44,458 nt of DNA. Origin: Gammaproteobacteria bacterium. Its GTDB lineage: Bacteria > Pseudomonadota > Gammaproteobacteria > SZUA-229. The number at the start of each line of letters is the position of its first letter. Within the stretch, counting starts at the first letter, position 1. Location of the stretch: positions 1 to 44,458 of the forward strand of contig JAOULC010000024.1 in assembly GCA_029882215.1 (NCBI GenBank), given 5' to 3'. Shown here piece after piece: positions 23,971-39,700 of the stretch. The position numbers and the translations under genes are program-made. The notes beneath the pieces are model-generated. The model was given only the letters and a program-made list of their open reading frames with translations, made no database searches and was not told where the DNA came from.

Positions 23971-24150
23971 ATTGACCCCAAAAACAAAGACTTAAGAATG
24001 TTATTGATAGACCGGCAAATAACCGGCCAGTTCAATCGAATGATACAATGAATCGAATTAAAAAGGTCAGATCTGGCAAAAGATTCTTCTTTTGTGCGTC
24101 TGGGTAATGGATTCTTCAGCTTGTTATTTATTCTCTGCCAGCACGCTCAC

Positions 24151-25350
24151 TCAGTCCGTTTTAAAGCCACTGATCATGTTTTCCAGACTCTGCGCACGTA
24201 AGTTTATGTCTTCGCTTGCATTGTTGATCATATCCAAGTTTGAAGACGATTCTGAGATCACCTCGCTGATCACCTGCACATTGCCGTTAACCGTGGACAT
24301 CAGCTGATTTTGCACTTCAGCAGACTCGGCTATCTGCGCATTCATTTGCCTGACCGTTCCTATTGACGATGAAATAATAGCCAGCGACTCGACCGCCTGC
24401 TCAGTCAAATCAACACTGCTTTGCGCTGTCTCTTTGCCTTCTGACATCGACTCAACTGCCTTACGGGTGCCCAGCTGCAGCTTTTCTGTTATCGCTGTGA
24501 TTTCTTTCGTCGACTGCTGGGTTCTGTTTGCAAGCACCCTTACTTCATCTGCGACAACAGCAAACCCGCGCCCCTGCTCGCCTGCTCTTGCCGCTTCAAT
24601 CGCCGCATTTAATGCCAATAAATTAGTCTGCTCGGCAATGCCATTGATGACCGATAACACCTCACCAATATTTGCACTGTCATTTTCAAGCTTTGCAATC
24701 ACGTCGGTAGAGGCCTGAACGACCTCAGCAAGTGAGTCAACAGCACACATGGCCTCAACAATCACCAGTTTTGCCGTATTGCCCTGTTCGTCTGCTGCCT
24801 CCGTGGCTTTAGCTGTATCAGCTGAGCTGTTTGCGACATCTCCGGCTTTAACCACCACCTGATTAACAGCTGACACAACCTGATCGACCGTGGCCAGTTG
24901 TTGCTGCAGCCCCGAAGAAGCCAGATGCGCTGATTCACGTAATTCATTAGCCGACAATTGCAAACCTGCGGCTTCACTTTTCAGACTAACCACCAGCTCC
25001 CGCAGGGTATTGGCCATACGGTTAAAGCTATCAATAATGACACCGATAACATCATCACTTTGCATGTCGCACTGCAGGCTAACATCTTTATTACTGATCG
25101 CATTGGCAACATCAGCGATCCTTGACAGTCTCCGCAATAATATATATCTGACCAGTATAAAATTTGAAAACCCAATGAACACGCCGGCTATTAAACAGCC
25201 TGCAAAGAACCAGCCATACATTCCCTGTTTAAAATCGACAAAAAGCTCTGCAAAAAATGGAAAGATAGCGCCGACAATCAAGCCAAAGAAAAGGAAGGAT
25301 ATTAATAGATTACGTAATAAACTTGGTTTTAGTTTCTTTTTCACAGCCAT
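24151..25350 (-). CDS. methyl-accepting chemotaxis protein without a periplasmic sensor domain
   Basis: This 399-residue transducer has two transmembrane segments (about 13-33 and 43-66) separated by a loop of under ten residues ([10 protein letters not shown]). A HAMP-like region ([21 protein letters not shown]) and a full cytoplasmic signalling domain follow. The hairpin tip [37 protein letters not shown] is complete, so CheA/CheW coupling is expected. There is no CheR-binding pentapeptide at the end. With no room for ligand binding outside, it would sense membrane or cytoplasmic signals, or act with another receptor. No che genes are nearby. Confidence 0.92.
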
Positions 25351-25618
25351 TTTTTCCTCATTTGCGACGCAGTTATTAAGCCACTCTATAAACTGTCTCG
25401 ACTGATACTCGATTTATCCAACTACACAGGTATATATAGTAGAAATTTTCTGCTCTTTCTCAAACCACACGCCGTAATACTGTGCCAGTCGGCATTAAAT
25501 AGAACTTAACCCGCCAGACAGGCAATGTTAAGATAGAATCCGTTACTCTATGTATAAACGGCTGGACATCGCTTTTTTTACTCTTTTCATTAAATCCCAC
25601 TACTAGGCTCTACATTTC

Positions 25619-26596
25619 ATGTTTGGTTTTCTTAAACGCAAAAAGACTGACAGCAGCTCTGATACCAGCGTATCGACTGACAATAACGCACTTCGCGACT
25701 CAATCAAGATATCACGCCGAGGTTTTACAGACGGTCTGGCCGATATATTACTGGGTTCAAAGTCCATAAATGACGACATCCTTGAAGAACTGGAAAATCG
25801 TCTGATAACAGCTGATGTCGGCATTGACGTGACGCAGAAAATCATCTCTGACCTGAGCAAACGCGTCTCACGCAAAGAACTTAACAATGCAGACACTCTT
25901 ATGCAGTGTCTGGCTGAAGATATGATAGAGATGCTAAAACCAGCACAACAGCCTTTGCAAACTACCAACAAGCAACCTTTTGTTATTCTGGTGGTCGGCA
26001 TCAATGGTGCAGGAAAAACCACCACCATTGGCAAACTGGCCAAGCGCTTTCAAAATGAAGGTAAATCGGTCATGCTCGCTGCCGGTGACACCTTTCGCGC
26101 CGCCGCCGTAGAACAACTCAAAACCTGGGGTGAACGTAATAATATACCGGTCATCGCTCAGGGTACCGGTGCAGATTCCGCTTCAGTTATTTTTGATGCC
26201 GTGCAATCGGCGCAGGCTAAAGGCATTGATATTGTCATTGCCGATACAGCAGGCCGCTTGCACACCCAGAGCAACCTGATGGAGGAGCTCATTAAAATTC
26301 GCCGTGTCATGGGTAAACTCGATGACACAGCACCACATGAAGTGATGTTAGTCATGGACGCCGGTTTTGGTCAAAACGGTCTGATTCAGGCCGAGCAATT
26401 CCATAAAGCCATGAATGTCACAGGACTTACTATCAGCAAACTCGATGGCACAGCTAAAGGCGGTATTTTACTGGCTATTTCTCAAAAATTAGGCCTGCCA
26501 ATTCGTTATATCGGCGTAGGCGAAGGGATTGAGGATTTACGTGAATTCAATGCCAAAGAATTTGTTTATGCGTTACTGGATCATCAGCCAGACTAA
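25619..26596 (+). CDS. ftsY: signal recognition particle receptor FtsY
   Basis: FtsY is the GTPase that docks SRP-ribosome complexes at the membrane. It has 325 residues. The acidic A domain of E. coli FtsY is almost absent, leaving a short basic N terminus (MFGFLKRKK). The N domain follows, then the G domain with G1 GINGAGKTTTIGKLA (about 128-141), DTFRAAAVEQL, DTAGR, and TISKLDGTAKGG. It is followed by ftsE-ftsX, the classic ftsYEX order, but across a 370-base gap with its own promoter. Confidence 0.96.
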   Translation: MFGFLKRKKTDSSSDTSVSTDNNALRDSIKISRRGFTDGLADILLGSKSINDDILEELENRLITADVGIDVTQKIISDLSKRVSRKELNNADTLMQCLAEDMIEMLKPAQQPLQTTNKQPFVILVVGINGAGKTTTIGKLAKRFQNEGKSVMLAAGDTFRAAAVEQLKTWGERNNIPVIAQGTGADSASVIFDAVQSAQAKGIDIVIADTAGRLHTQSNLMEELIKIRRVMGKLDDTAPHEVMLVMDAGFGQNGLIQAEQFHKAMNVTGLTISKLDGTAKGGILLAISQKLGLPIRYIGVGEGIEDLREFNAKEFVYALLDHQPD

Positions 26597-26918
26597 TTTG
26601 TTTTAAGCGGGATTATTTATCCCTGGCTATGTACAACTTTACCCGCTCTATCCCATCATCACTTATTAACAATAGCTGTTGATAAGTATGTGGGAAAGCT
26701 GCTTACTACCTTGCTAAACCCAGATGGCGTACGGCTTCATTATTTTTGTTTAAGTTTCATACTTGCAAGACTCCTCTCTTTCCAATCTCTTTATTAAGGT
26801 AAGTAGCTGACAAAACTCACGTAAGTAAAGCTTCGAAAACCCTTATTTTCCACTGTAAACAGAACACTGCAAACTGTCTTCAAATATGGCAAACTAGAAC
26901 AACAACAGGTACCGGAGT
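26597..26918. other. intergenic region between ftsY and ftsE
   Basis: These roughly 320 bases hold no recognisable gene. AGCGGG shortly after the ftsY stop can pair with CCCGCT further on, a weak long-loop hairpin. The right end carries the ftsE promoter. The gap is odd because ftsY and ftsE are close together in most relatives. Confidence 0.4.
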
Positions 26919-26946
26919 TTGACTGCGATCTCCGAGTCCATATAAG
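26919..26946 (+). promoter_or_regulatory. strong sigma-70-type promoter for ftsE-ftsX
   Basis: TTGACT (26919-26924, 5 of 6) and TATAAG (26941-26946, 5 of 6) are separated by 16 bases. A start near 26953 would give a leader of about 13 bases, just enough for the ribosome binding site GGGGA before the ftsE ATG at 26966. Confidence 0.7.
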
Positions 26947-26965
26947 AATGATAGTTGGGGAATTC

Positions 26966-27649
26966 ATGATCCGTTTTGACAATATAAGCAAACAATACCC
27001 GGGGGGCTTTGAAGCATTATTAGGCCTAAGCTATCACTTACCTCGCGGCCAAATGGCCTACCTGACGGGACATTCCGGCGCCGGCAAGAGTACCTTGTTA
27101 AAACTTATCGCTATGATCGAGCGCCCCAGCCGTGGGCAGATTTTTCTCGATGGCGTTAATTTAAACCAGATTGGCAAAAGCAAGATCCCTTATATTCGTC
27201 GTAATATCGGTATTATTTTCCAGAACCACCAGCTGCTAAATGACCGCAATGTTTATCAGAATGTCGCCTTGCCCTTAATTATTGCCGGTTATCGCCACCA
27301 GGAAGTTCGCAAACGTGTACGCGCCGCACTCGATCAGGTTGACTTATTAAGCAAAGAAAACGCCATGCCCATCACCTTATCCGGCGGTGAACAGCAACGC
27401 GTGGGTATTGCCCGTGCCATCGTTCACAAACCCCCCTTATTACTGGCTGATGAGCCAACCGGTAACCTCGACCCTGAGTTATCCAAAGAAATCATGCAGC
27501 TGTTTGAACGCTTCAATCAGGTTGGTGTGTCGGTGCTGATTGCCAGCCATGACCTCAACCTGATCGATGAGATGGGCTACCCTGTTATTTCTCTTGATGA
27601 AGGCCGCCTGATCAGAAATGATCTTGTTTCAACGGGAGCATTAAGCTAA
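26966..27649 (+). CDS. ftsE: cell division ATP-binding protein FtsE
   Basis: FtsE is the ATPase of the FtsEX complex, which couples division-site assembly to peptidoglycan hydrolase activation. It has 227 residues with Walker A GHSGAGKST, IIFQNHQLLNDRNVYQNVALPL, signature LSGGEQQRVGIARA, Walker B LLLADEPTGNLD and the SHD switch. The frame opens at 26948, but ATG 26966 has a proper ribosome binding site (GGGGA). Its stop overlaps the ftsX start by one base. Confidence 0.95.
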   Translation: MIRFDNISKQYPGGFEALLGLSYHLPRGQMAYLTGHSGAGKSTLLKLIAMIERPSRGQIFLDGVNLNQIGKSKIPYIRRNIGIIFQNHQLLNDRNVYQNVALPLIIAGYRHQEVRKRVRAALDQVDLLSKENAMPITLSGGEQQRVGIARAIVHKPPLLLADEPTGNLDPELSKEIMQLFERFNQVGVSVLIASHDLNLIDEMGYPVISLDEGRLIRNDLVSTGALS

Positions 27650-28623
27650 TGGCTATGTCTCCTGATCGCACTCAAAAGCATGGGGTAAAACCTCAGCGTA
27701 ACTCACCTTTTCGCGCTTATTTCTTACATCATATCCGGGTGTTTATCTCCAGCTTGGGAGAGCTGACACGCCGCCCTATTGCCAGCATGATGACCATCAC
27801 GGTGATCGCTATCGCACTGGCACTGCCCAGCGGACTGTATCTGTTATTACACAATGTCAATCACATCAGTGCAGACTGGGACAGTTCGGCACAAATGTCG
27901 CTCTTTATAAAAAATGACATCAGTATAAAAAGGGTTGAGCAACTCGCCGATCGGCTAAATCTGCGAAATGATATTGAAAGTACCAACATAATCACGCCTG
28001 AAGAAGCTTTAGAAGATTTCGTACGCATTTCAGGCTTTGGTGATGCACTGAATTCACTCGACTCAAACCCTCTGCCAGCGGTCATTGTCATTCAACCGGT
28101 CGTTGATACCTTAAAACCGTTACAGGTTTCTCAGTTACTCAGTGACATGAAGAAGCTGCCAGAGGTCGATATTGCACAGCTTGATCTGGACTGGGTTAAA
28201 CGCCTTTATGCTATGTTAGACATCGCAGAACGCGCTGTCTGGGTGGTCAGTCTGCTACTGGCTATTGCTGTTTTATTAACTGTCGGTAATACCATTCGGC
28301 TGGATATTCAGAACCGAAAAGAAGAAATCATAGTCACCAAATTAATCGGTGCAACCAATGCCTTTATACGCAGGCCTTTTCTCTACACCGGCTTATGGTA
28401 TGGCTTAATCGGCAGCCTTCTGGCATTGATACTGACCAATATTGCACTGAGTTTACTATCTGAGCCCGTGCACACACTGGCGATTCTTTATAACAGTAAT
28501 TTTCAGCTCAGCGGCCTGAGTATCGATGACTCACTAATACTGATTTTAACCAGCTGCACTTTAAGCCTTGGCGGATCATGGCTGGCGGTTGGGCGACAGT
28601 TAAGTAGAATCGAGCCCAGTTAA
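27649..28623 (+). CDS. ftsX: cell division protein FtsX
   Basis: FtsX is the membrane subunit of FtsEX, 324 residues. It has a cytoplasmic N terminus, a first transmembrane helix (about 43-65, MMTITVIAIALALPSGLYLLL), and a periplasmic domain (about 70-190) that in relatives binds EnvC-type activators. Three more helices follow in the FtsX/MacB-type C-terminal domain (WVVSLLLAIAVLLTVGNTIRL, LWYGLIGSLLALILTNIAL, and the last near the end). The start overlaps the ftsE stop, and the pair is surely coexpressed. Confidence 0.95.
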   Translation: MAMSPDRTQKHGVKPQRNSPFRAYFLHHIRVFISSLGELTRRPIASMMTITVIAIALALPSGLYLLLHNVNHISADWDSSAQMSLFIKNDISIKRVEQLADRLNLRNDIESTNIITPEEALEDFVRISGFGDALNSLDSNPLPAVIVIQPVVDTLKPLQVSQLLSDMKKLPEVDIAQLDLDWVKRLYAMLDIAERAVWVVSLLLAIAVLLTVGNTIRLDIQNRKEEIIVTKLIGATNAFIRRPFLYTGLWYGLIGSLLALILTNIALSLLSEPVHTLAILYNSNFQLSGLSIDDSLILILTSCTLSLGGSWLAVGRQLSRIEPS

Positions 28624-28727
28624 GCTGAGTAGATAAGCAATTGTTTTATATTTAAAATATTTATCAAGCAACCGCATCATCTGCCTTTAGATATTTAGAA
28701 ACTAACTTTGACAACACCAGGGTAGGT

Positions 28728-29513
28728 ATGGCTAAACGTTCTATATTATTGATAGATGGCTCCAAAGCCAGTCGGGCGATTATTTGCAAGTCAATCCGTG
28801 CTAATTTAGAAAATATACAGCTCACTGATTTTGATACAGCCATTGCGGCACTGGTTTACTGCCAGACGCATTCTTTAGATCTTATTATTACCGCTATGAG
28901 TCTGCCCGATATGCAGGCTCAGGATTTCGCTGAAAAACTGCGTACTGATTACAATAATCTGAGTACACCCATTATCATGATGTCCGGGGACTTTATGCTC
29001 AATATCAAGAATAAAACCGCTACTCACCACATAAACGGCTATTTCGACAAATCCCGTGGCAATGATCACCTGATCAAATACATTCAGTCTTATCTGTGTA
29101 TGCGCATGTGGAACAAGGCCAAAAGCTGCCATGTGCTATATGTTGAGGACAGTCAAACCGTCACCCGTGTCGTCACCAATATACTTGAAACTCACAACTA
29201 CACCTTTCAGCACGTTACCAATGCAGCCGATGCACTCACTTTACTCGCTGATCAGAGCACCAGTAAAACCTTTGATATCTTGCTCACCGACATTCAATTA
29301 GATGGAATTATGAACGGTGATGATTTGATCCGTGAAATACGCTTTGGTCTTGGGCTGATGCCTAAAGACCTTCCCATACTGGTCTCCAGCTCTCCCAGTC
29401 TTGACCGCATGGGAAGTGTTGGAAATATTTTCGCGGCTGGGGCAAATGACATCATTGAGAAACCCTTAATAGAAACCCAGCTAATAGCTAGAATAGGCAA
29501 TCTTATCCAATAA
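28728..29513 (+). CDS. protein with two receiver domains, the first lacking its phosphoacceptor Asp
   Basis: This 261-residue protein is made of two CheY-like receiver domains in tandem with no output domain. In the first (about 4-122) the phosphoacceptor position is A56 (IITAMSLPDM), so it cannot be phosphorylated in the normal way, though K108 remains. The second (about 134-260) is complete, with E140-D141, D188 (LLTDIQLDG) and K245 (IEKPL). It lies between ftsX and rpoH, about 100 bases from ftsX. The partner kinase and output are unknown; proteins of this shape often act by protein-protein contacts. Confidence 0.87.
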   Translation: MAKRSILLIDGSKASRAIICKSIRANLENIQLTDFDTAIAALVYCQTHSLDLIITAMSLPDMQAQDFAEKLRTDYNNLSTPIIMMSGDFMLNIKNKTATHHINGYFDKSRGNDHLIKYIQSYLCMRMWNKAKSCHVLYVEDSQTVTRVVTNILETHNYTFQHVTNAADALTLLADQSTSKTFDILLTDIQLDGIMNGDDLIREIRFGLGLMPKDLPILVSSSPSLDRMGSVGNIFAAGANDIIEKPLIETQLIARIGNLIQ

Positions 29514-29623: not shown

Positions 29624-29654
29624 ACTATATACAAGATTTTTAGGAGTGATGACA

Positions 29655-30521
29655 ATGAGTACAGCATTGATACCAGCTAAAACGGCTTTACCTGTCGTTA
29701 CCAGTAACGATCTGGACAGCTATTTCCGCGATATCAACAACATACCCATGATAACCGCCGAAGAAGAACGTCAGTTAAGCGACCGTCTGCAACAGCATGG
29801 CGATCTTGAAGCTGCGCAAAAGTTAGTTTTATCTAACTTACGCTTTGTTGTCCGTATCGCTCGTGGATATAGCGGTTATGGTTTACCACTGGCTGACCTG
29901 ATTCAGGAAGGCAATATTGGTTTAATGAAAGCCGTTAAGCGCTTTGACAGCTCGCATAATGTACGCCTTGTTTCTTTCGCTGTGCACTGGATTCGGGCTG
30001 AGATACATGAGTTTGTTATCCGTAACTGGCGCATTGTTAAAATTGCTACGACCAAACCTCAGCGTAAATTATTTTTCAAACTGCGTTCATCAAAGAAACG
30101 CCTTGGTTGGTTTAATCAGGATGAGGTTCAGGATATCGCAGCCACTCTGGGTGTAAAACCTGAAACGGTTATGGAAATGGAAGCACGCCTGAATAACTAT
30201 GATGTCGCTTTTGATGCACCTGACAATCAAGACAGTGAAGATAGTCACCTGTCGCCATCAACTTATCTGGCCAACCAGAGCATGGATCCTGCTAACGATG
30301 CAGAGTCTGCCGACTGGGAGCAAAACCAGTTACAGCAACTGACAGAATCTCTCACCACGCTGGATGAGCGTAGTCAGGATATTCTGCAACAGCGCTGGTT
30401 GAATGATGACAAAGCCACATTACAGGATCTGGCTAAAAAATATCAGATTTCTGCAGAGCGTATTCGCCAGCTGGAAGCCAATGCACTGAAAAAGCTTCGC
30501 AACGGCATGTTGGAAGCTTAA
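29655..30521 (+). CDS. rpoH: RNA polymerase heat-shock sigma factor RpoH (sigma-32)
   Basis: This 288-residue sigma-70 family factor directs transcription of heat-shock genes. Region 1.2 ([20 protein letters not shown]), regions 2.1-2.4 ([39 protein letters not shown]), the RpoH box that marks the sigma-32 group ([10 protein letters not shown]), and regions 4.1-4.2 ([28 protein letters not shown]) are all present. GTG 29646 and ATG 29649 are also in frame, but ATG 29655 has the best spacing from TAGGAG. A CIRCE element lies upstream and a strong terminator downstream. Confidence 0.96.
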
Positions 30522-30603: not shown

Positions 30604-30987
30604 TTATTTCCCTAAAAAGACACCCGGTATCCAGCTCTTTTTAATTTTACTGGTTTTTTCCAGCGTATCCTGCTCCTTACTTTCATCATAAAACTTGAAA
30701 TTAATCCAGCCAATACGAATAGTATCGTTATGTTTTAAACGCTGTCTTTTGGCTTCTACTTCATTTACAAACGAGCCATTCGTACTACCCAGGTCATGGA
30801 TATAGTAATTAAACTCACCGGTATATTCGACACTGTCTTCGACTTCCAGTGTCGCGTGTTCACCGCTCACTGATATATCATCAATCGTAATATCACACTC
30901 TACACGTCGCCCTATCAGGGTTTTCTTTGCCGAAATTGTAAATTTATTGATGACTACATCACCATCCAGTTGTAACAGCATTATCAT
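30604..30987 (-). CDS. small FHA-domain protein
   Basis: This 127-residue protein is nearly all one forkhead-associated domain, a phosphothreonine-binding module. It shows the conserved IGRRVECDI, ISVSGEHATLEV and DLGSTNGSFVN motifs, then a short basic and hydrophobic tail (KIKKSWIPGVFLGK). The frame stays open to 31056, but the domain begins at MIMLLQLDGD and I take the ATG at 30987 (30981 is possible). No Ser/Thr kinase lies nearby, so the phosphoprotein partner is unknown. Confidence 0.85.
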   Translation of the reverse strand: MIMLLQLDGDVVINKFTISAKKTLIGRRVECDITIDDISVSGEHATLEVEDSVEYTGEFNYYIHDLGSTNGSFVNEVEAKRQRLKHNDTIRIGWINFKFYDESKEQDTLEKTSKIKKSWIPGVFLGK

Positions 30988-31092
30988 AATTTGATCACTT
31001 CTACTCGACTCGATTTCACTGTTTATATCATAGACTATTAACACGCAACTCGGCAATCTGATCTTATGTTTTACACTAAATATCCCAGGCGA

Positions 31093-31121
31093 AAAAAAAG
31101 CAGCCTGATGCTGCTTTTTTT
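31093..31121 (-). terminator. terminator at the end of the ccoGHIS block
   Basis: AAAAAAAAGCAGC pairs with GCTGCTTTTTTTT around a short loop, giving an A/T-flanked hairpin that works in either direction. It lies 30 bases beyond the stop codon of the 30-residue ORF and closes the leftward cco transcript. Confidence 0.85.
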
Positions 31122-31150
31122 TCTAGCCGCCCGCAGTAGAGTGCCTGTCC

Positions 31151-31243
31151 TTAGGCAAAAATAACAGACAAAAAGCTAAGCCAGGATAAAACGACAATTG
31201 CAAAAACAATTGTTAGTGGTAGTCCATGGTAAAAACTAAACAT
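31151..31243 (-). CDS. 30-residue single-helix membrane microprotein at the end of the cco locus
   Basis: This tiny ORF begins MFSFYHGLPLTIVFAI and continues as one hydrophobic helix (about 9-29) to a TAA. It has a good ribosome binding site (GAGGTG, 6 bases from the ATG), follows ccoS by 35 bases on the same strand, and ends shortly before a strong terminator. These signals argue that it is translated. Pseudomonas stutzeri cbb3 oxidase contains a small single-helix subunit, CcoM, so a subunit or assembly role is plausible, but I cannot show homology. It could also be a chance ORF. Confidence 0.6.
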   Translation of the reverse strand: MFSFYHGLPLTIVFAIVVLSWLSFLSVIFA

Positions 31244-31278
31244 ACATCACCTCATTAAGCATATCAGCAAATATTAAT

Positions 31279-31497
31279 CTATTGGTCGTTATTTTTCAAG
31301 TCGGTTTTGGCTTGCTCAGACTTATCTGCAGCCGTATCAAAGCCAGGCACCATCGGGTCATCATCATCCATAAGAATACGGTGAGCCGGCCCTTCCAAAT
31401 CTTCAAACTGGCCGTTTTTAACCGCCCAGATGATGGCCCAGAGCGCAACGCCCATCACCATAAAACCCAGAGGTATTAACAAGTATAGTATTTTCAT
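31279..31497 (-). CDS. ccoS: cbb3 oxidase maturation protein CcoS
   Basis: This 72-residue protein has one N-terminal transmembrane helix (about 4-26) followed by WAVKNGQFEDLEGPAHRILMDDD, the CcoS/FixS signature. CcoS is needed for cofactor (haem/copper) insertion into the CcoN subunit in Rhodobacter. The C-terminal tail is acidic and hydrophilic. It starts 5 bases after ccoI. Confidence 0.95.
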   Translation of the reverse strand: MKILYLLIPLGFMVMGVALWAIIWAVKNGQFEDLEGPAHRILMDDDDPMVPGFDTAADKSEQAKTDLKNNDQ

Positions 31498-31502
31498 AAG
31501 GC

Positions 31503-33932
31503 TTATTCTTTAAAAGCTCTTAAACGCAAAGCATTTACGACGACGACAAGTGAACTCATCGACATCCCGATAGCTGCCATCCACGGTGCTACCACCCCCA
31601 TGGCAGCCAGCGGTACAGCTAGCAAATTATAGCCGATTGCCCAGCCAAAGTTCTGCCGAATAATTTGCAGTGTTCGCCGTGACATCGATATACCGACGGC
31701 CAGATGCTTCAGGTTCTCTGATAATAACACCATATCGGCACTTGCATGGGCCAGCTGGGTACCACTGCCCATCGCCAGAGAAACCTGTGCAGCGGCCAGT
31801 ACCGGTGCATCATTCACACCATCACCGACCATCGCCACAACAGCCCCCTGCTTTTGCAGTGTTTGCATATAACTTAACTTATCTTCTGGTAAACACGCGC
31901 CTCTGGCCTCATCAATGCCCAATTCAGCGGCTACGTGATCAACTACCGATTGCTGGTCACCACTGAGTAATATGATCTTGAGACCCAGCTGTTTTAGCTC
32001 ATTAATGCTATTGCCCGCTTCATGACGAAGCTGATCCTGAATAGCAATCATGGCCAGTAAGCCCGATTCATCGGCGACATAAACTGTACTTTTTATATCC
32101 TGCTCAAGCTCCGGCTCAGGTAGCACTGAATGCCCGAGCTCTTTCACGAAGGTTAGTGTACCTATTCTGACTTTTGAGCCCTTATAAATGGCTTCAAGGC
32201 CTTTTCCTGGCATTGACCGGGAGGCTGTCAGTGGCAGTTTTTTATCACTCAAATTGCCCAGTGCGCGGGCTATCGGGTGCTCAGAATCCTGCTCCATAGT
32301 GGAAACAAGGGCTCGCAACTCTGAAGCAGCCATCCGCTCCTGTAACAGCCGAATCGTACCGGCCTCTAACTGACCGTAAGTCAGTGTACCTGTTTTATCA
32401 AAAACAATATGCGTTGCATTAGCCAGTGTTTCAAGCGCATGACCACGGGTGGTTAATAAGCCAATTTCTGTCAGCCGGCCTGTCGCTGCAGTTAAGGCGG
32501 CCGGTGTGGCCAGAGACAAGGCACACGGACAGGTTACCACCAGTACCGACAAGGTAATCTGAAAAGCATGCAGCGGGTCGTGACCTGCCCAGTAGAACGC
32601 GACCAGCACAGCAATCACTAATAATGCAGCAATAAACCAGCCGGCAATTTTATCAACAGCACGGGTTAATGAGGGCTTTTCACTGGTCGCGCGATCCAGC
32701 AAACGAATCACCGAGGATAAGAAGCTATCCTCTCCTACCAATGTCACACATACGGTTAGCGGGCTTTCAATATTTTGCGTACCACCGACCACATCATCCC
32801 CTGCTTGTCGGCTACGTGGCAAACTTTCGCCGGTTAATAAACTTTCATCAACACTGCTAAGGCCTTCAACCACTTTGCCGTCAGCAGGAATCAGTTCTCC
32901 GGGTTTAACTAATACACGGTCATCTTTTTCAAGCTCACTGGTAGTAACGACCTCATACTCACCGCTGTCCCGTATTCGGGTTGCTGTGGCCGGTACTAAT
33001 TTGACAAGTTCTTCTGCTGCACGACCGGCCTTGTGGCGAGCGATCAGTTCAAGATAACGACCGGCCAGCAGAAAAAACACAAACATGGTGACCGAATCAT
33101 AATAGACTTCTCCAATGCCGCTAATGGTTGACCAGAGACTGGCAGCAAACGCCCCGCCCATTGCTAATGACACCGGTACATCCATACCCAGCCGGCGGCG
33201 CTTTAAATCACCCCAGGCTGATTTGAAAAATGGCTGCGCCGAATAAAGTATCACCGGTATTGCAAAACCAAGACTGACCCAGCGCAAAAACTCCCGGATA
33301 TCCGCATCCATTGCACCTTCACCGGCGTATAGCGCAATCGCTACCATCATCACCTGCATCATCCCAAGCCCGGCAACTAACAGACGGCGAACTGCGGTTT
33401 GCTTTTCTTTTTTATGCACCGACTCCTGACGACTCGGGTCAAACGGGTGCGCATGATAACCGATCGATTCGATAGCTCGTAATACCTGGCTGAGTTTTAT
33501 CTGTTCACTATGCCAGGTTAACTGTGCACGATGAGTCGAGTAGTTGACCCTAAATTCAACCACACCAGGCAATGAACTTATGTATTTTTCATTAAGCCAG
33601 ACACAGGCAGCACAAACGATGCCCTCCAGCATTAAAGCCGCTTCTTTTACGTCGCCTTGATCTTCACGCACAAAAGATTTTTGTAACTGAGGCTTGTCGT
33701 ACAAATCCAGCTTCATCAGCTCTTCAGGCACTAACTCACCGGCTGTGCGACTGTTATCGGTACGATGCTTATAAAATGAGGTGAGATTATTTTCGACAAT
33801 GGCATTGGCGACCGCTTCACAACCGGGGCAGCACATCGGCCGCATCAGCTTATCTATTTCAACCAGATAACGCGTACCCTCAGGAACGGGTAGTCCGCAA
33901 TGAAAACAGGACTGTTGCTTATTCTCGCTCAT
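31503..33932 (-). CDS. ccoI: copper-translocating P1B-type ATPase CcoI (FixI)
   Basis: CcoI supplies copper for the CcoN active site by moving Cu across the inner membrane. The 809-residue protein starts with a Cys-rich segment (CFHCGLPVP, then [10 protein letters not shown]). A heavy-metal-associated domain follows with [10 protein letters not shown] near residue 100, then eight predicted helices including the CPC motif ([12 protein letters not shown]). The P-type core (phosphorylated Asp in [24 protein letters not shown]) completes it. Length and domain order match the CcoI/FixI group. It lies between ccoH and ccoS. Confidence 0.95.
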
Positions 33933-33943
33933 CTTGTCTGTGC

Positions 33944-34762
33944 TTATTGAGTCTGAGATTTAACAAAGGTATCACCGCGAATTTCATGCACATCATCTCC
34001 GCCAGTGATCATTACCACAACATCCCAGTTTCCGGCTAACTCAAAATTAACACTTTGCTGATAAACACCATCCAGTACTTCTGTCATGTTAAATTCTTTA
34101 TCCGCTTTAAAATTCGACGGCCTTAAAAATTTAAGATTAATCTTCAGCCCGCTGATAATATGACCATTTTTATCTCTGGCTTCGATCTGAAATATTGCCG
34201 GCGTATTCTGCACAGGAGATACCAGCCAGCCCTGCTTTATTTTCCAGCCACGCGCTTTTTGTTTTTTCAGCTTTTCAAGGTATTCATTATAGAGTGCTTC
34301 TTTTTCCTGATAGTCATGAGAAATCACACCGGGGAACTGTGAGGTGTAAACCTCACCGCTCTGTTTAGGCAACAACCACTGCAGTAACTCCGGTGACATG
34401 CCTTTAGTAGAAAGCGTAACCAGCGTCATATTGACGACCACAACGACAAAAAAGAATGCAAAAAATAATGCCGGAATCCAGTGAAACCATTTCTTACGCT
34501 GTTCAGTATCCAGTGCCTGCTCACGATAATGACTGATCAGACCCAGCATATACGGCACCACACCAAAAATTGCCAGGTGAATAGCAAACACATCACCACC
34601 AGGCCAGAAAATAATAGCCAGCGGAATATACACGCCCAGTACTATTGCCGCGGATAAAAGCCCGGACTTTGGTGCGCTGAAATGAACAAACTTGTAAAAC
34701 ACTACAAAACTTAAAATTGCTGCTACAACACCAATTCCCAGTGAAGTTAATAAATCCGGCAT
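33944..34762 (-). CDS. ccoH: CcoH/FixH-family cbb3 assembly protein with extra N-terminal membrane helices
   Basis: FixH/CcoH proteins are membrane-anchored assembly or stability factors of cbb3 oxidase. The usual form is about 150-170 residues with a single helix. This one has 272 residues and four hydrophobic segments (about 4-22, 35-53, 58-77, 95-117). The fourth leads into the periplasmic FixH-like beta-rich domain ([22 protein letters not shown], then [13 protein letters not shown]). The first three helices therefore look like an added membrane domain. Its place between ccoG and ccoI supports the assignment. Confidence 0.82.
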
Positions 34763-34782: not shown

Positions 34783-36210
34783 TTATTTAGGGGTGTAAAA
34801 CAACGCACTGTCTCTGATCGGATCAAATACAATATTCTTAGGTACCAGAACAAATTCAAAAGGTTGCTGACCATCAGAATGCATGATTCTCTCATGTTTA
34901 ATCCGCACCAGAACAGACTGCGTTTGTTCCGGCTTCAACTTTAATTCTTTAAGCCGGCCAAGATCGATCTCTGCATTCGGCAAACCTTCTATCACCAGCC
35001 CCAAGTCCACTGTTTGCTGACTTTTGTTATTCACTTTTAATTCGTAACTGTTCTGATAGCGGCCATCCGATAACTGCACATACATCGGCTGGCGAATTTT
35101 ACGCACTGACATATCCATCGGATCCTGATTTGCCATATTCCAGCCCATCCAGATACTGCCACCGATAAATGCCAGCGCATAACCAATATTTTTGGGTTTG
35201 AAATACTTAGGCCGTATTCCCATCGTCACTTCACGCTCTGATGTGTACCTGACCAGACCCTTTGGCCAGCCAAGATTTGTCATGATCTGATTACAGGCAT
35301 CAATGCACAAACCACAAGAGATACATTCATTTTGTAAGCCGTCACGGATATCAATACCGGTGGGGCACACCTGCACACAGAAACCGCAATCAACACAGTC
35401 GCCGATATTATTTGCCTGTCGTTGTTCACGAGTTTTATTGTCTTTAGAAATTTTGGCGCGACCGGCATCCGCCTCACCACGTTTATCATCATAGGCAATG
35501 ATCAGTGTGTCACGATCAAACATCGCTGCCTGAAAGCGCGCATAAGGACAAACCGACTTACATAATTGCTCGCGCGCAAAGCCCGCCAGCATAAACGTCG
35601 AAGCCGTTAATATAGCAACCGTGATGTAAGCCGCCTGATCCAGTTCACCTGCAAAAAAACCAAAGAACATGTCCGGCGCATTGCCCCAGTAAATAATAAA
35701 AGTGAAACCGGTTACAAAAGCAACTAACAGGTACAACAGAAAAGTGATGGAAATTTTAGTGATTTTTTCAGCATTCCATGGCTGCTTGCTCAAACGGATA
35801 CGCGCTGGCCGTTCACCCTGCACAAGTCGTTCAATGAAGGTATAGGTATCAAGCCATAAAGTGTGAAAACAAAAATAACCACACCACACCCGGCCCAGCA
35901 CACCGGTAACAAAAAACAAAAGATAGGCGGCGATAATTAAAAAAGCTGTCAGCCAGACCACGTCCTGCGGATGCATGATTAAGCCAAAGATATAAAACAG
36001 CCGGGCATCAAGATCAAACAATACAGCCTGATCAGGCCCGCTAATACGGTCCCAGCGTAGCCATGGTAATAAAAAATACACCGCATATGCCAGCAACAGC
36101 ATCAGTGTTTTGAAATTTCGGAATGAGCCTTTGACAGAGCGTACAAAAACTTTTTGGGCTGGCTCTACGCCATTAAAAATAACCCTTTGCTGTGAGTTGG
36201 GTTCTGCCAT
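34783..36210 (-). CDS. ccoG: cbb3 oxidase accessory protein CcoG (RdxA/FixG)
   Basis: CcoG is a membrane-bound polyferredoxin-like protein, shown in Rhodobacter to act as a Cu(II) reductase in oxidase assembly. The 475-residue protein has an N-terminal helix, more helices around GRVWCGYFCFHTLWLD and the REQLCKSVCPYARFQAAMFD motif. Two 4Fe-4S motifs follow (CVDCGFCVQVCPTGIDIRDG and CISCGLCIDACNQIM), and an Ig-like periplasmic C terminus ends it. It is first in the second cco block, behind a terminator and a TATAAT box. Confidence 0.95.
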   Translation of the reverse strand: MAEPNSQQRVIFNGVEPAQKVFVRSVKGSFRNFKTLMLLLAYAVYFLLPWLRWDRISGPDQAVLFDLDARLFYIFGLIMHPQDVVWLTAFLIIAAYLLFFVTGVLGRVWCGYFCFHTLWLDTYTFIERLVQGERPARIRLSKQPWNAEKITKISITFLLYLLVAFVTGFTFIIYWGNAPDMFFGFFAGELDQAAYITVAILTASTFMLAGFAREQLCKSVCPYARFQAAMFDRDTLIIAYDDKRGEADAGRAKISKDNKTREQRQANNIGDCVDCGFCVQVCPTGIDIRDGLQNECISCGLCIDACNQIMTNLGWPKGLVRYTSEREVTMGIRPKYFKPKNIGYALAFIGGSIWMGWNMANQDPMDMSVRKIRQPMYVQLSDGRYQNSYELKVNNKSQQTVDLGLVIEGLPNAEIDLGRLKELKLKPEQTQSVLVRIKHERIMHSDGQQPFEFVLVPKNIVFDPIRDSALFYTPK

Positions 36211-36320: not shown

Positions 36321-37259
36321 TTATTTACCACCACCCAGTTCATGTATAAACACAGTCAACAGTTTGATGTCATTAGCACTTAAACGCTCAGACCAGCCAG
36401 GCATTTTACGACTAATACCATTAGTCACGACTGACTTAACAGTGTCTTTCTTAGCTTCCAGATTAGACGCAGCAGGAACATTCGCCACAGTCCAGATACT
36501 GTCAGTCAGGTTGGCAGAACCCACAGACAACATACCGGTTGCATTTGTCGTATGACAGTAATAGCAACCGCCTTCCTGACCGTTAAAGATACGCTTACCG
36601 GTTGCTACTTTATTTTCATCCACCGAATGACCTGAAAGCGACAACACGTATTCTGCAACGGCATCTAACTGCTCTGCTGTAAAAGTATCTGTGTATGCCG
36701 GCATAAAGCCCTGACGACCGTGTTCGATGGTTGCCTGTATCTGCTCAACTTTACCACCCCATAACCAGTCATCATCAGCCAGATTAGGAAATAGTCCAAC
36801 AACACCTGTACCACCGCTACCATGGCAGGCTGCACAGTTATCACCGTAAATACCTTTTGCTAATGAACGTGCAAAAGCCATTTTTTCCGGATCTGCTAAA
36901 ATTTCATCAAAGCTCGCCTTAGACACTTCGTCCATATAGGCTTTTTGTTTCAGCGCTTCTTTACCGCGCTGCATATCCGCCATAAACAGCGCACGGGTAT
37001 TCCAGTGCGTAGTGACTTCTTTTGCTTCGCCGGTGTTTTTATCCACCACATTATAAGTAATGTCATTGAATGTACCGGTAGTAAAGCCTTTACCTACAGG
37101 CCATGCCGGATAAACAATCCAGTAAATAATGCAAATAACTACTGTAAAGTAGAAAGACCATATCCACCAGCGCGGTACTGGATTGGTTAACTCTTCAATG
37201 CCGTCCCAGCTATGGCCGGTAGATGCAGCACCACCTGATTTTTGATTCGTATTACTCAT
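36321..37259 (-). CDS. ccoP: cbb3-type cytochrome c oxidase subunit III, diheme cytochrome CcoP
   Basis: CcoP carries electrons from soluble cytochromes to CcoO and CcoN. The 312-residue protein has an N-terminal cytoplasmic stretch, a transmembrane helix (about 34-53), and two class I cytochrome c domains with CAACH (near 143) and CYYCH (near 232). The distal Met residues are in FMPAYTD and RKMPGWSE. The N-terminal extension ahead of the first haem domain is typical of CcoP. The start overlaps the ccoQ stop by 8 bases. Confidence 0.95.
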   Translation of the reverse strand: MSNTNQKSGGAASTGHSWDGIEELTNPVPRWWIWSFYFTVVICIIYWIVYPAWPVGKGFTTGTFNDITYNVVDKNTGEAKEVTTHWNTRALFMADMQRGKEALKQKAYMDEVSKASFDEILADPEKMAFARSLAKGIYGDNCAACHGSGGTGVVGLFPNLADDDWLWGGKVEQIQATIEHGRQGFMPAYTDTFTAEQLDAVAEYVLSLSGHSVDENKVATGKRIFNGQEGGCYYCHTTNATGMLSVGSANLTDSIWTVANVPAASNLEAKKDTVKSVVTNGISRKMPGWSERLSANDIKLLTVFIHELGGGK

Positions 37260-37461
37260 CTTTTTTCACCGTTGTCGAACTCTTTTGTTCGTCGTCGTCA
37301 TCCAGGAAGGGCATATGTTTATATGACTCAAGGCGCTTGCTACGTTCCTTACCAGTGAACACAAAAACCAGCAAAATGACAAATCCGACAAAAAATATCA
37401 GCAGCGCAAGAATCTTGCTATTGCGCATATCACCTAACCAGTTAAAAATTTCACCTATCAA
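37252..37461 (-). CDS. ccoQ: cbb3 oxidase small subunit CcoQ (FixQ)
   Basis: This small single-helix subunit stabilises the oxidase. The hydrophobic helix ILALLIFFVGFVILLVFVF is followed by a basic-then-acidic tail (GKERSKRLESYKHMPFLDDDDEQ), as in many CcoQ proteins. The start is uncertain: TTG 37461 has a good ribosome binding site (GGAAAGGG) and gives 69 residues. ATG 37428 has only AGG 4 bases away and would start just before the helix. The first in-frame start is TTG 37503. I choose 37461. It overlaps ccoP by 8 bases. Confidence 0.82.
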   Translation of the reverse strand: MIGEIFNWLGDMRNSKILALLIFFVGFVILLVFVFTGKERSKRLESYKHMPFLDDDDEQKSSTTVKKDE

Positions 37462-37520
37462 GTCATTACCCTTTCCGTATGCTGCGCTGAGTTTAAGTAA
37501 CAAAGCGCAGTTATCATTAA

Positions 37521-38255
37521 TTATCTGAACTGTACGAAATGACCTTCGTCATACTGGCTGAAATCAACCAGTGTACCCAGCATTTGCAAGTAAGCGACCA
37601 TCGCTTCCATTTCAGTAATACGCGTTGCATCACCGTCATAGTTGCCTGTTTGTGCTTGCTTGATCAGGTTTTCCTGTGCTTTCTGAATATCCAGCATTTC
37701 AGCAACGTCCTGTCCAAACTCTTTTACATTCGCTTCATATTCAGCTTTGCTTTCAGAGTAAGGCACACCAACTTTTTTCAGTGCTCGCATACGATCGGCC
37801 ATATCACTAAAGTCCAGATCATTTTCCAGTAACCAAGGATAGTTAGGCATGATGGACTCAGGCACAACTGAGCGAGGTGCTTTCAAATGCTGAACCTGCC
37901 ATTCGTTTGAGTACTTACCACCGACACGAGCCAGATCAGGACCAGTACGCTTAGAGCCCCACTGGAACGGATGATCATATTTAGACTCAGCCGCCAGTGA
38001 ATAATGACCATAACGCAGTGCTTCATCACGGAACGGGCGGATCATTTGTGAATGACACAGGTAACAACCTTCACGCTGGTAGATATCACGGCCACGTAAC
38101 TCTAAAGGAGTGTATGGACGTACGCCGTCCACTTTCTCAATGGTGTCATTGATGTGGAACAGTGGAACAATTTCAACCAGACCACCAATACTGATCACAA
38201 CCATTGTGAACAGCATTAAAAGTCCAAGATTTTTTTCAATTTTATCGTGCTTCAT
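37521..38255 (-). CDS. ccoO: cbb3-type cytochrome c oxidase subunit II, monoheme cytochrome CcoO
   Basis: CcoO is a membrane-anchored monohaem cytochrome c that passes electrons to CcoN. The 244-residue protein has an N-terminal transmembrane helix (about 10-30) and the haem c motif CYLCH in [21 protein letters not shown]. The axial Met is probably in [12 protein letters not shown]. The [22 protein letters not shown] block is strongly conserved in CcoO. It follows ccoN by 11 bases. Confidence 0.97.
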
Positions 38256-38266
38256 GAGTCAGTCTC

Positions 38267-39700
38267 CTAAGCAGCGGCTGCAGCAGCTTCAGCGGCTTCG
38301 CGCTTACCTTGCTTGGCAGTCATGTAAAGGTTATAAGCCATGATCGCAGCACCTGTCACAAACAGGAATCCACCGATCGCACGCGTAACATAAGGACCGT
38401 GCAAGTAACTAACAGACTCAACGAAGGTGTACGCTAAGTTACCGTAGCTATCAAAGGCACGCAGGATAAGACCCTGACCGATACCTGACGTCCACATAGC
38501 CGTGATATATAAAACGATACCGATAGTCGCTAACCAGAAGTGAGTGAATATCAGCTTTTCGCTGTACATCTTAGTGTTATAAAGCTTAGGTACCATGTGG
38601 TAGAAAGAACCAAATGAAACCATTGCAACCCAGCCTAAAGCACCTGAATGTACGTGACCGATAGTCCAGTCAGTGTAATGCGATAGTGCATTAACCGATT
38701 TCAGTGCCATCATTGGGCCTTCAAACGTCGACATGCCGTAGAAAGACAATGAAACGATTAAGAATCGCATAATCGGATCGGTACGCAGTTTGTCCCAGGC
38801 ACCCGACATTGTCATGATACCGTTGATCATACCGCCCCATGAAGGCATTAACAGAATGATCGAGAACGTCGCCGCCAGTGTTGATGTCCAGTCAGGCAGT
38901 GCTGTCCAGTGCAGGTGATGACCGCCAACCCACATGTAGAGGAATACCAGCGCCCAGAAGTGAATCACAGACAAGCGATATGAATAAATTGGACGACCCG
39001 CTTGCTTTGGTACGAAGTAATACATCATGCCAAGGAACGCAGCTGTTAAGAAGAAGCCAACGGCATTATGCCCATACCACCACTGCGTCATTGCATCTTG
39101 CACACCTGAGAACAGGCTGTATGACTTCATGCCCATCAAACTAACCGGCATTGCCAGGTTGTTGAAGACATGCAGCAATGCAGTTGCCAGAATAAAGGCA
39201 ATAAAGAACCAGTTAGCAACATAAATGTGTGGCTGTGAGCGCTTACGGATTGTCATCACGAATACATACAGGTAGATAACCCATGTCACCGTGATCAATA
39301 AATCGATAGGCCATTCAAATTCAGCGTATTCACGTGCCTGTGTGTAACCCAGCATGTAAGACATAACGCCCAGAGCAACAGAAACCTGCCAGCCCCAGAA
39401 TGTGAAGTTCGCCATGCCGTCACCATGCAGGCGAGCCTGACAGGTTCGCTGAACGATGTAGTAGGACGTTGCAAATAATGCACTACCACCAAAACCGAAG
39501 ATAACCAGCGTCGTATGCACCGGACGCAGGCGACCGAATGTAATGTACTGGGAGTCAAAGTTCAGGAACGGAAAAGCAAGTTCGGATGCGGCATAAAAAC
39601 CAACGAACATGCCCAAAACACCCCAAACCATTGCCATCGCGGCAAATCTCTTGATGATGTCGTAATTGTATTCTGCTTTAGCAGCCATACTATGCGCCAT
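38267..39700 (-). CDS. ccoN: cbb3-type cytochrome c oxidase subunit I CcoN
   Basis: CcoN is the catalytic haem-copper subunit (C-type) that reduces oxygen to water and pumps protons at low oxygen. The 477-residue protein has about twelve helices. Haem and CuB ligands are expected in [31 protein letters not shown] and [11 protein letters not shown], and in the pair of His in the late [11 protein letters not shown] short Ala-rich tail ends it ([10 protein letters not shown]). The start ATG has a GAGG ribosome binding site. It heads ccoNOQP. Confidence 0.97.

Follow-up and report, generated by a model that had tools for sequence, protein, structure and literature searches.

The 30-codon open reading frame (ORF) that follows ccoS in the 44,458-nucleotide stretch of gammaproteobacterial DNA analyzed here, referred to below as the window, probably encodes a single-helix inner-membrane microprotein, and its predicted function is to work with one clade of cbb3 oxidases. 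In a sample of 369 genomes from the class, the 54 genomes that carried the microprotein were exactly the 54 that carried the corresponding clade of CcoN. The best reading of the comparisons described below is that the microprotein is a single-helix accessory protein specific to this one cbb3 clade and distinct by sequence from CcoM, the small subunit with which it might otherwise be equated.

The ORF was located on the minus strand at positions 31151 to 31243, stop included, begins with ATG, and translates to MFSFYHGLPLTIVFAIVVLSWLSFLSVIFA. An earlier note on this DNA had described a 30-codon ORF with a ribosome binding site and a single hydrophobic helix between ccoS and a terminator, and each of these elements was recovered within 31093 to 31278 or directly at its border. 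The sequence GAGGTG, which resembles a Shine-Dalgarno site as read from the sequence (31248 to 31253, minus strand), is 4 nt ahead of the ATG and was found at the identical distance from it in two genomes of the same genus, G001 and G003. The gap between ccoS, which ends at 31279, and the ORF is 35 nt. The product has one hydrophobic stretch, which was modeled by AlphaFold as a helix spanning residues 4 to 29 with a mean pLDDT of 89.4. On the 3' side of the gene, a terminator-like hairpin with a T tract was identified at about 31092 to 31122 (minus strand) from the sequence and a custom scan; it is composed of GCAGC-ATCAG-GCTGC with A8/T8 on its flanks and was absent from the output of a simple terminator scan of the window, probably because the A/T tract lengthens the stem. 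The custom scan found hairpins with T tracts no more than 120 nt past the microprotein stop in 38 of 60 loci, versus 8 of 600 shuffles. A 28-amino-acid ORF with a TTG start overlaps the microprotein ORF in a different frame and is without support. A convergent gene of the sigma-70 family (29646 to 30521, plus strand) matched the Pfam regions Sigma70_r2, r4, and r1_2; Pfam yields sigma-70 regions, and we take the gene to be rpoH by recognition. An FHA-domain gene (30604 to 31056, minus strand) is situated between it and the microprotein, and an FHA gene was also seen upstream of the microprotein and on the same strand in loci L164, L169, and L170.

Upstream of the microprotein, the window contains a cbb3 cassette on the minus strand in the order ccoN, ccoO, (ccoQ), ccoP, ccoG, ccoH, ccoI, and ccoS. 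The ccoN gene (38267 to 39700) was assigned to the microprotein-associated clade by profile match, tree, and identity ranking, and ccoO (37521 to 38255), ccoP (36321 to 37259), and ccoG (34783 to 36210) matched TIGR00781, TIGR00782, and TIGR02745, respectively. Between ccoO and ccoP, a ccoQ-like ORF (37252 to 37503), the true start of which is probably internal, matched PF05545 (FixQ) with an E value of 2.9e-6 and 27.6 bits, slightly below the curated cutoff of 29. The ccoH gene (33944 to 34762) encodes a 272-amino-acid protein with a FixH match and three additional N-terminal hydrophobic segments, about four overall. The next gene (31503 to 33932) encodes a heavy-metal P-type ATPase by domain match and was called ccoI because of its position among the cco genes, and ccoS (31279 to 31497; TIGR00847, 61.8 bits) is directly upstream of the microprotein. 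The genome from which the window comes (G000) carries both kinds of CcoN, since it holds a second cbb3 set on contig C97, at approximately 24100 to 28900, with a CcoN 64% identical and a CcoG 39% identical to those of the window; no second ccoS was detected beside that set.

The earlier note had proposed that a real gene should keep its frame in close relatives and show a bias toward synonymous sites, and both were observed. The ORF was present after ccoS in both congeners with a detectable ccoS, and its product was identical to that of the window at 27 of 30 residues in G001 and at 28 of 30 in G003; for the latter, 15 of the 21 nucleotide differences were at third positions (p = 4e-4). In a third congener, G002, which is 68% complete, ccoS and the ORF both went undetected. 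When 11 close pairs were pooled, one hand-picked from each of 11 groups with repeat pairs within a group left out, the differences at codon positions 1, 2, and 3 numbered 34, 17, and 83 (p = 1e-11). Misalignment (3 of 29 residues identical) led us to exclude a pair from family f75 from this pooled test; the pair is included in the pN/pS of 0.29 calculated over all 18 pairs. On these sequence comparisons, selection acting on the ORF at the protein level is a well-supported reading.

The 39 aligned members of the family are 28 to 39 amino acids long and share the motif [SA]W-x-S-F-x-S-V near the C-terminal end. V27 was found in all members and position 20 was S, A, or G in all, followed in conservation by S23 (97%), W21 (95%, otherwise Y), S26 (92%, otherwise T), F24 (87%), and P9 (85%), and the amino acid motif was retained across distant genomes with a mean column identity of 44%. 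The hydrophobic core was free of charged residues in all 39 members: of 49 charged residues counted, 46 were before P9, none from P9 to V27, and 3 after V27. A conserved helical face was not apparent, with no significant 100-degree periodicity of conservation along the helix (p = 0.4).

To define which genomes carry the family, a six-sequence profile (A1) was searched in the 369 genomes sampled from the class, and it gave matches at E ≤ 0.1 in 80 of them. Genomes were accepted as carriers if their best E was ≤ 0.005, which left 54, and the other 26 (best E from 0.0085 to 0.097) were dropped on E value, few of them having been inspected. The family is rare in a 398-genome sample of the phylum, where four matches at E ≤ 0.001 included three real ones (G000, G619, and G759); a 70-amino-acid frame in G428, from the same sample, was rejected because it lacked the motif, and the CcoN of this genome was 57% identical to that of the window. 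Among named genome records, 71 microprotein loci were found, with carriers including Thiohalobacter thiocyanaticus, Thiohalophilus thiocyanatoxydans, Plasticicumulans lactativorans, Plasticicumulans acidivorans, Thiothrix caldifontis, Thiothrix fructosivorans, Candidatus Competibacter, and Contendobacter, as well as metagenome-assembled genomes (MAGs) labeled Sulfurimicrobium and Hydrogenophilus. Two tandem copies of the gene were noted in G142 and G127 and at loci L224, L226, and L228; the loci with tandem duplicates (L224, L226, L228, L115, and L136) come from Thiothrix, a marine MAG, G142, and G127. The peptide of Plasticicumulans acidivorans has a calculated mass of 3310 Da in unmodified form, and the cultured strains among the carriers include P. 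acidivorans DSM 23606 and T. fructosivorans ATCC 49748. Five loci in positive genomes were away from both ccoS and rpoH (G288 C7:268887, near a polyphosphate kinase gene; G174 C2:326761; G224 C9:68819; G224 C1:275897; and G079 C7:136477, near COQ7); these could represent remote paralogues or have matched by chance, and they do not affect the genome counts.

The description of the ORF as unannotated in the earlier note held as far as Pfam-A and NCBIfam are concerned, the two libraries against which it was judged. None of the 39 members reached a curated cutoff in either, and the best E values, 0.028 in Pfam and 0.064 in NCBIfam, were to models with unrelated names. The family profile gave a single match in the PDB, at an E of 9, and a search of 72,556 plasmid records with one made-up consensus query found nothing. 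No title or opening of an abstract on the family was found in the open-access literature, a search largely outside subscription journals, and nothing on it was found in portions of PMC11955535, PMC10903887, and PMC8475189.

The genes neighboring the microprotein were compared at 62 loci, two from the genus of the window (G001 and G003) and the remainder from the class sample. At 48 of these loci, the match to a same-strand ccoS began no more than 511 nt upstream, and at 43 there was an rpoH-like gene, always on the opposite strand. When counted by genome, 47 of the 54, the window included, had the microprotein directly after ccoS, and in the other seven (G096, G108, G120, G127, G142, G236, and G356) an rpoH-like gene of opposite orientation was 149 to 436 nt away. 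The named records gave a similar arrangement, with ccoS upstream on the same strand at 58 of 71 loci and rpoH within the flank at 37, always on the opposite strand; of the 13 loci without ccoS, 12 had rpoH. The microprotein follows ccoS in many families, where it usually closes the ccoNOQP-GHIS cassette, and this neighborhood, together with the co-occurrence described below, links the family genetically to the cbb3 genes.

In three of the seven genomes, the microprotein gene was on a separate contig beside an rpoH-like gene and the clade cassette was also present: the complete cassette ended with ccoS in G142 and G356, as did the GHIS part in G127. The upstream regions of unlinked copies were searched with the FNR/ANR consensus TTGATNNNNATCAA, allowing no more than one mismatch. 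FNR/ANR-like boxes were found upstream of the copies in G127 (two, at -139 and -79) and at L222 and L223 (-117), upstream of the first tandem copy at L226 and L228, before the second copy only in G142, and farther off, at -389, in G356. No box with one mismatch or fewer was found upstream of L213, L217, L224, L227, G120, L183, G619, or the first G142 copy. The background was 90 of 1,320 random 400-nt pieces of the same contigs and, for the class loci, 36 of 2,400. Boxes were also present upstream of ccoN in three of six cassettes tested (G356, G142, and G127), and the best box upstream of ccoN in the window had two mismatches. These patterns suggest that the microprotein may be controlled together with microaerobic respiration, in what are few and partly related lineages.

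CcoN was above the TIGR00780 cutoff in 189 of the 369 class genomes. With the CcoN of the window as the query, 54 genomes had a copy of at least 69% identity (at least 742 bits), the next copy being at 67% and 727 bits, and their identity with the 54 microprotein genomes gave a Fisher p of 3e-66, a value that ignores shared ancestry. Both the E threshold for the microprotein and the identity threshold for CcoN were chosen after the data had been seen, and the identity gap at the border of the clade is narrow (69% to 67%); a tree of CcoN agrees with it. This tree, of 117 rows, was built by a quick method with SH-aLRT support only, after partial CcoN sequences of fewer than 250 residues and partial duplicates had been removed. 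It placed 52 rows, one per microprotein genome, and a second copy from G210 in one group with an SH-aLRT support of 99; outside this group were all 43 rows of genomes without the microprotein and, of 22 additional CcoN copies in genomes with it, 21. Of the 52 rows, 49 come from class genomes and 3 from G003, G619, and G759; the remaining five of the 54 class genomes (G143, G215, G239, G310, and G354) were outside the tree, and their CcoN was 76 to 79% identical to that of the window. Genomes with a nonclade CcoN and no microprotein occurred beside positive ones in families f1 (G007, G011, and G018), f10 (G324), f44 (G342), f90 (G264 and G364), and f141 (G400).

We searched the 140 genomes whose CcoN-like matches were all outside the clade with a 39-sequence profile (A3) and found no convincing microprotein. 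Nine weak matches at E ≤ 0.05 were all inspected; none had the motif and none was accepted, the least certain of these rejections being a 42-amino-acid frame in G297 that ends in FPLVITMLLVISSYFSSINVIYKS (E 0.0098) and is without the motif. A match in G254 (E 0.0085 with A1, and 5.6e-5 with A3) was rejected because it covered nothing more than the N-terminal part of an LptC protein, and one in G018 (L005) was rejected because the motif was absent. In 20 cassettes of genomes without the microprotein, ccoS was present in 18, and a short hydrophobic ORF followed it in 1 of these 18 (L338) and was unrelated in sequence. One genome counted as negative, G416, has a contig with a clade-type CcoO (80% identical), CcoP, CcoG (50%), CcoH, and part of CcoI that is cut at both ends; neither a clade CcoN nor the microprotein was found in this genome, and we read the exception as an assembly gap.

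The earlier note had compared the ORF with CcoM, the small subunit of the Pseudomonas stutzeri cbb3 oxidase, and this comparison holds as an analogy and fails by sequence. Chain N of PDB entry 5djq, which we take by its sequence to be CcoM, is 36 amino acids long, and the two have in common a length of approximately 30 to 36 residues, one hydrophobic helix, and a tie to a cbb3 oxidase. However, 5djq_N ends in the charged tail FIWRDAHKK, whereas the microprotein family has a mostly uncharged end with WxSFxSV. Homology was rejected, since hhalign gave a probability of 0.3% and the family profile did not retrieve 5djq_N from the PDB at E values up to 10; the best match to CcoM in the genome of the window had an E of 0.9 and was inside a 280-amino-acid frame. 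CcoM is treated in passages of PMC10433244 and PMC9264385. CcoS (FixS, PF03597) and CcoQ (FixQ, PF05545) are likewise small cbb3 proteins with a hydrophobic segment from the same cassette, but the window has a gene of its own for each of them, and the 39 members gave no match to PF03597 or TIGR00847 and none to PF05545 up to an E of 10. Short helices at the edge of an oxidase are also provided by CydX in bd oxidase and by subunit IIa in B-type oxidases. YnhF is mentioned as a bd oxidase subunit in a passage of PMC9264385. By analogy, the microprotein might work as CydX, YnhF, and subunit IIa do, although these belong to different oxidase families; their names did not appear among the Pfam-A and NCBIfam matches of the 39 members up to an E of 10, in libraries that possibly hold no such models. 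In Rhodobacter capsulatus, passages of PMC7876108 describe a transmembrane helix beside CcoN that is attributed to CcoH and stays with the oxidase; the microprotein would resemble it as a helix beside CcoN, but CcoH is larger and is encoded separately in the window (272 amino acids).

Taken together, the conserved frame, the third-position bias, and the exact co-occurrence with one CcoN clade in 369 genomes support the idea, put forward in the earlier note, of a new cbb3 subunit or assembly factor. The microprotein probably inserts in the membrane as one helix with its N terminus inside, as judged from the 46 of 49 charged residues at that end. The conserved [SA]W-x-S-F-x-S-V stretch would then pack against a helix of the clade's oxidase, most likely in the CcoN-containing core, with contact made through small and aromatic side chains toward the C terminus, and the microprotein would stabilize the oxidase complex or aid its assembly. 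CcoN has 18 clade-specific positions, residue 265 among them, which together point to no single binding site. Residue 265, which comes just after the histidines that bind copper, is W in the clade (HHLHW) and Y in 98% of the other CcoN rows (HHLHY). Because its presence follows the oxidase clade and survives the loss of linkage to the cassette, a subunit of the CcoN-containing core is favored, and on these sequence patterns we lean, by a little, toward a permanent cbb3 subunit.

A subunit is more likely than a pure assembly factor, which would join CcoG, CcoH, CcoI, or CcoS in delivering copper or in membrane insertion before leaving the oxidase. Such a factor, which we consider unlikely but the strongest of the alternatives, would fit the place of the gene, which comes after ccoS and closes the ccoGHIS part, and it would fit the separation of CcoG, which is nearly as clean as that of CcoN: in 64 hand-chosen genomes, CcoG was 47 to 56% identical to that of the window where the microprotein was present and 36 to 43% where it was not, with only a CcoG of the other type found in G184 and none found in G120. 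As CcoG splits along nearly the same line as CcoN, the cassette appears to travel as a block, so the co-occurrence names the cassette and not a partner within it. The assembly of the clade's oxidase may also differ from that of others, since CcoH had three or four hydrophobic segments in 32 of 37 called microprotein cassettes, compared to 0 of 17 outside the clade, where each had one. These calls include wrong frames in L099 and L105, which are inside the 37 and were scored as not long, and they leave out L331, where the wrong gene was called; the CcoH of L350 is only 56 amino acids and may be miscalled. However, three microprotein cassettes (L134, L152, and L154) carry a CcoH of the usual one-segment form, and these are early branches of the clade when the CcoN tree is rooted at its midpoint; the microprotein is therefore not tied to the long form. 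The helix attributed to CcoH in the R. capsulatus oxidase (passages of PMC7876108) further blurs the line between factor and subunit. For the favored permanent subunit, we tentatively extend the reading to one that, with the HHLHW CcoN, a usually four-segment CcoH, and the 30-residue helix, would define a separate class of cbb3 oxidase; this is plausible, with the chances slightly against it.

That the microprotein is something other than a subunit or an assembly-only factor is improbable. The first such possibility, a regulatory peptide of the copper ATPase CcoI, would have precedent in KdpF and sarcolipin, peptides that act on other P-type ATPases, and CcoI is encoded two genes upstream in the same cassette, but nothing points to CcoI in particular and we regard this role as very unlikely. 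We give hardly any weight to a nonprotein function, in which the region would be a conserved RNA element at the 3' end or would encode a leader peptide and matter through its RNA sequence; the ORF is short and ahead of a terminator-like hairpin at 38 of 60 loci, yet the codon bias led us to reject this explanation, the amino acid motif is kept across distant genomes, and downstream there is often the hairpin and, at 43 of 62 loci, an rpoH-like gene in convergent orientation, and no gene that a leader could control. A hydrophobic type I toxin of a toxin-antitoxin pair, placed after ccoS by chance, would match the small size, the hydrophobicity, and the tandem copies in some genomes, but its one-to-one co-occurrence with a CcoN clade and the lack of matches to the single made-up consensus query in the plasmid records make it exceedingly improbable.

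The cbb3 oxidases support respiration at very low oxygen, and the microprotein very probably serves one branch of them specifically, as a component or a helper. A membrane protein of 30 amino acids is easily missed by gene finders. If the reading given here is true, oxidases of this clade that have been purified or heterologously expressed may be missing a chain, and the description of the gene cluster would be incomplete in sulfur oxidizers (Thiothrix, Thiohalobacter, and Thiohalophilus) and in wastewater bacteria (Competibacter and Plasticicumulans). If the microprotein is a permanent subunit, the oxidase would need a small chain that is outside the annotation models used and the PDB chains found here. 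With the two sets of genomes in the sample identical, cultured strains should offer an easy test of the question.
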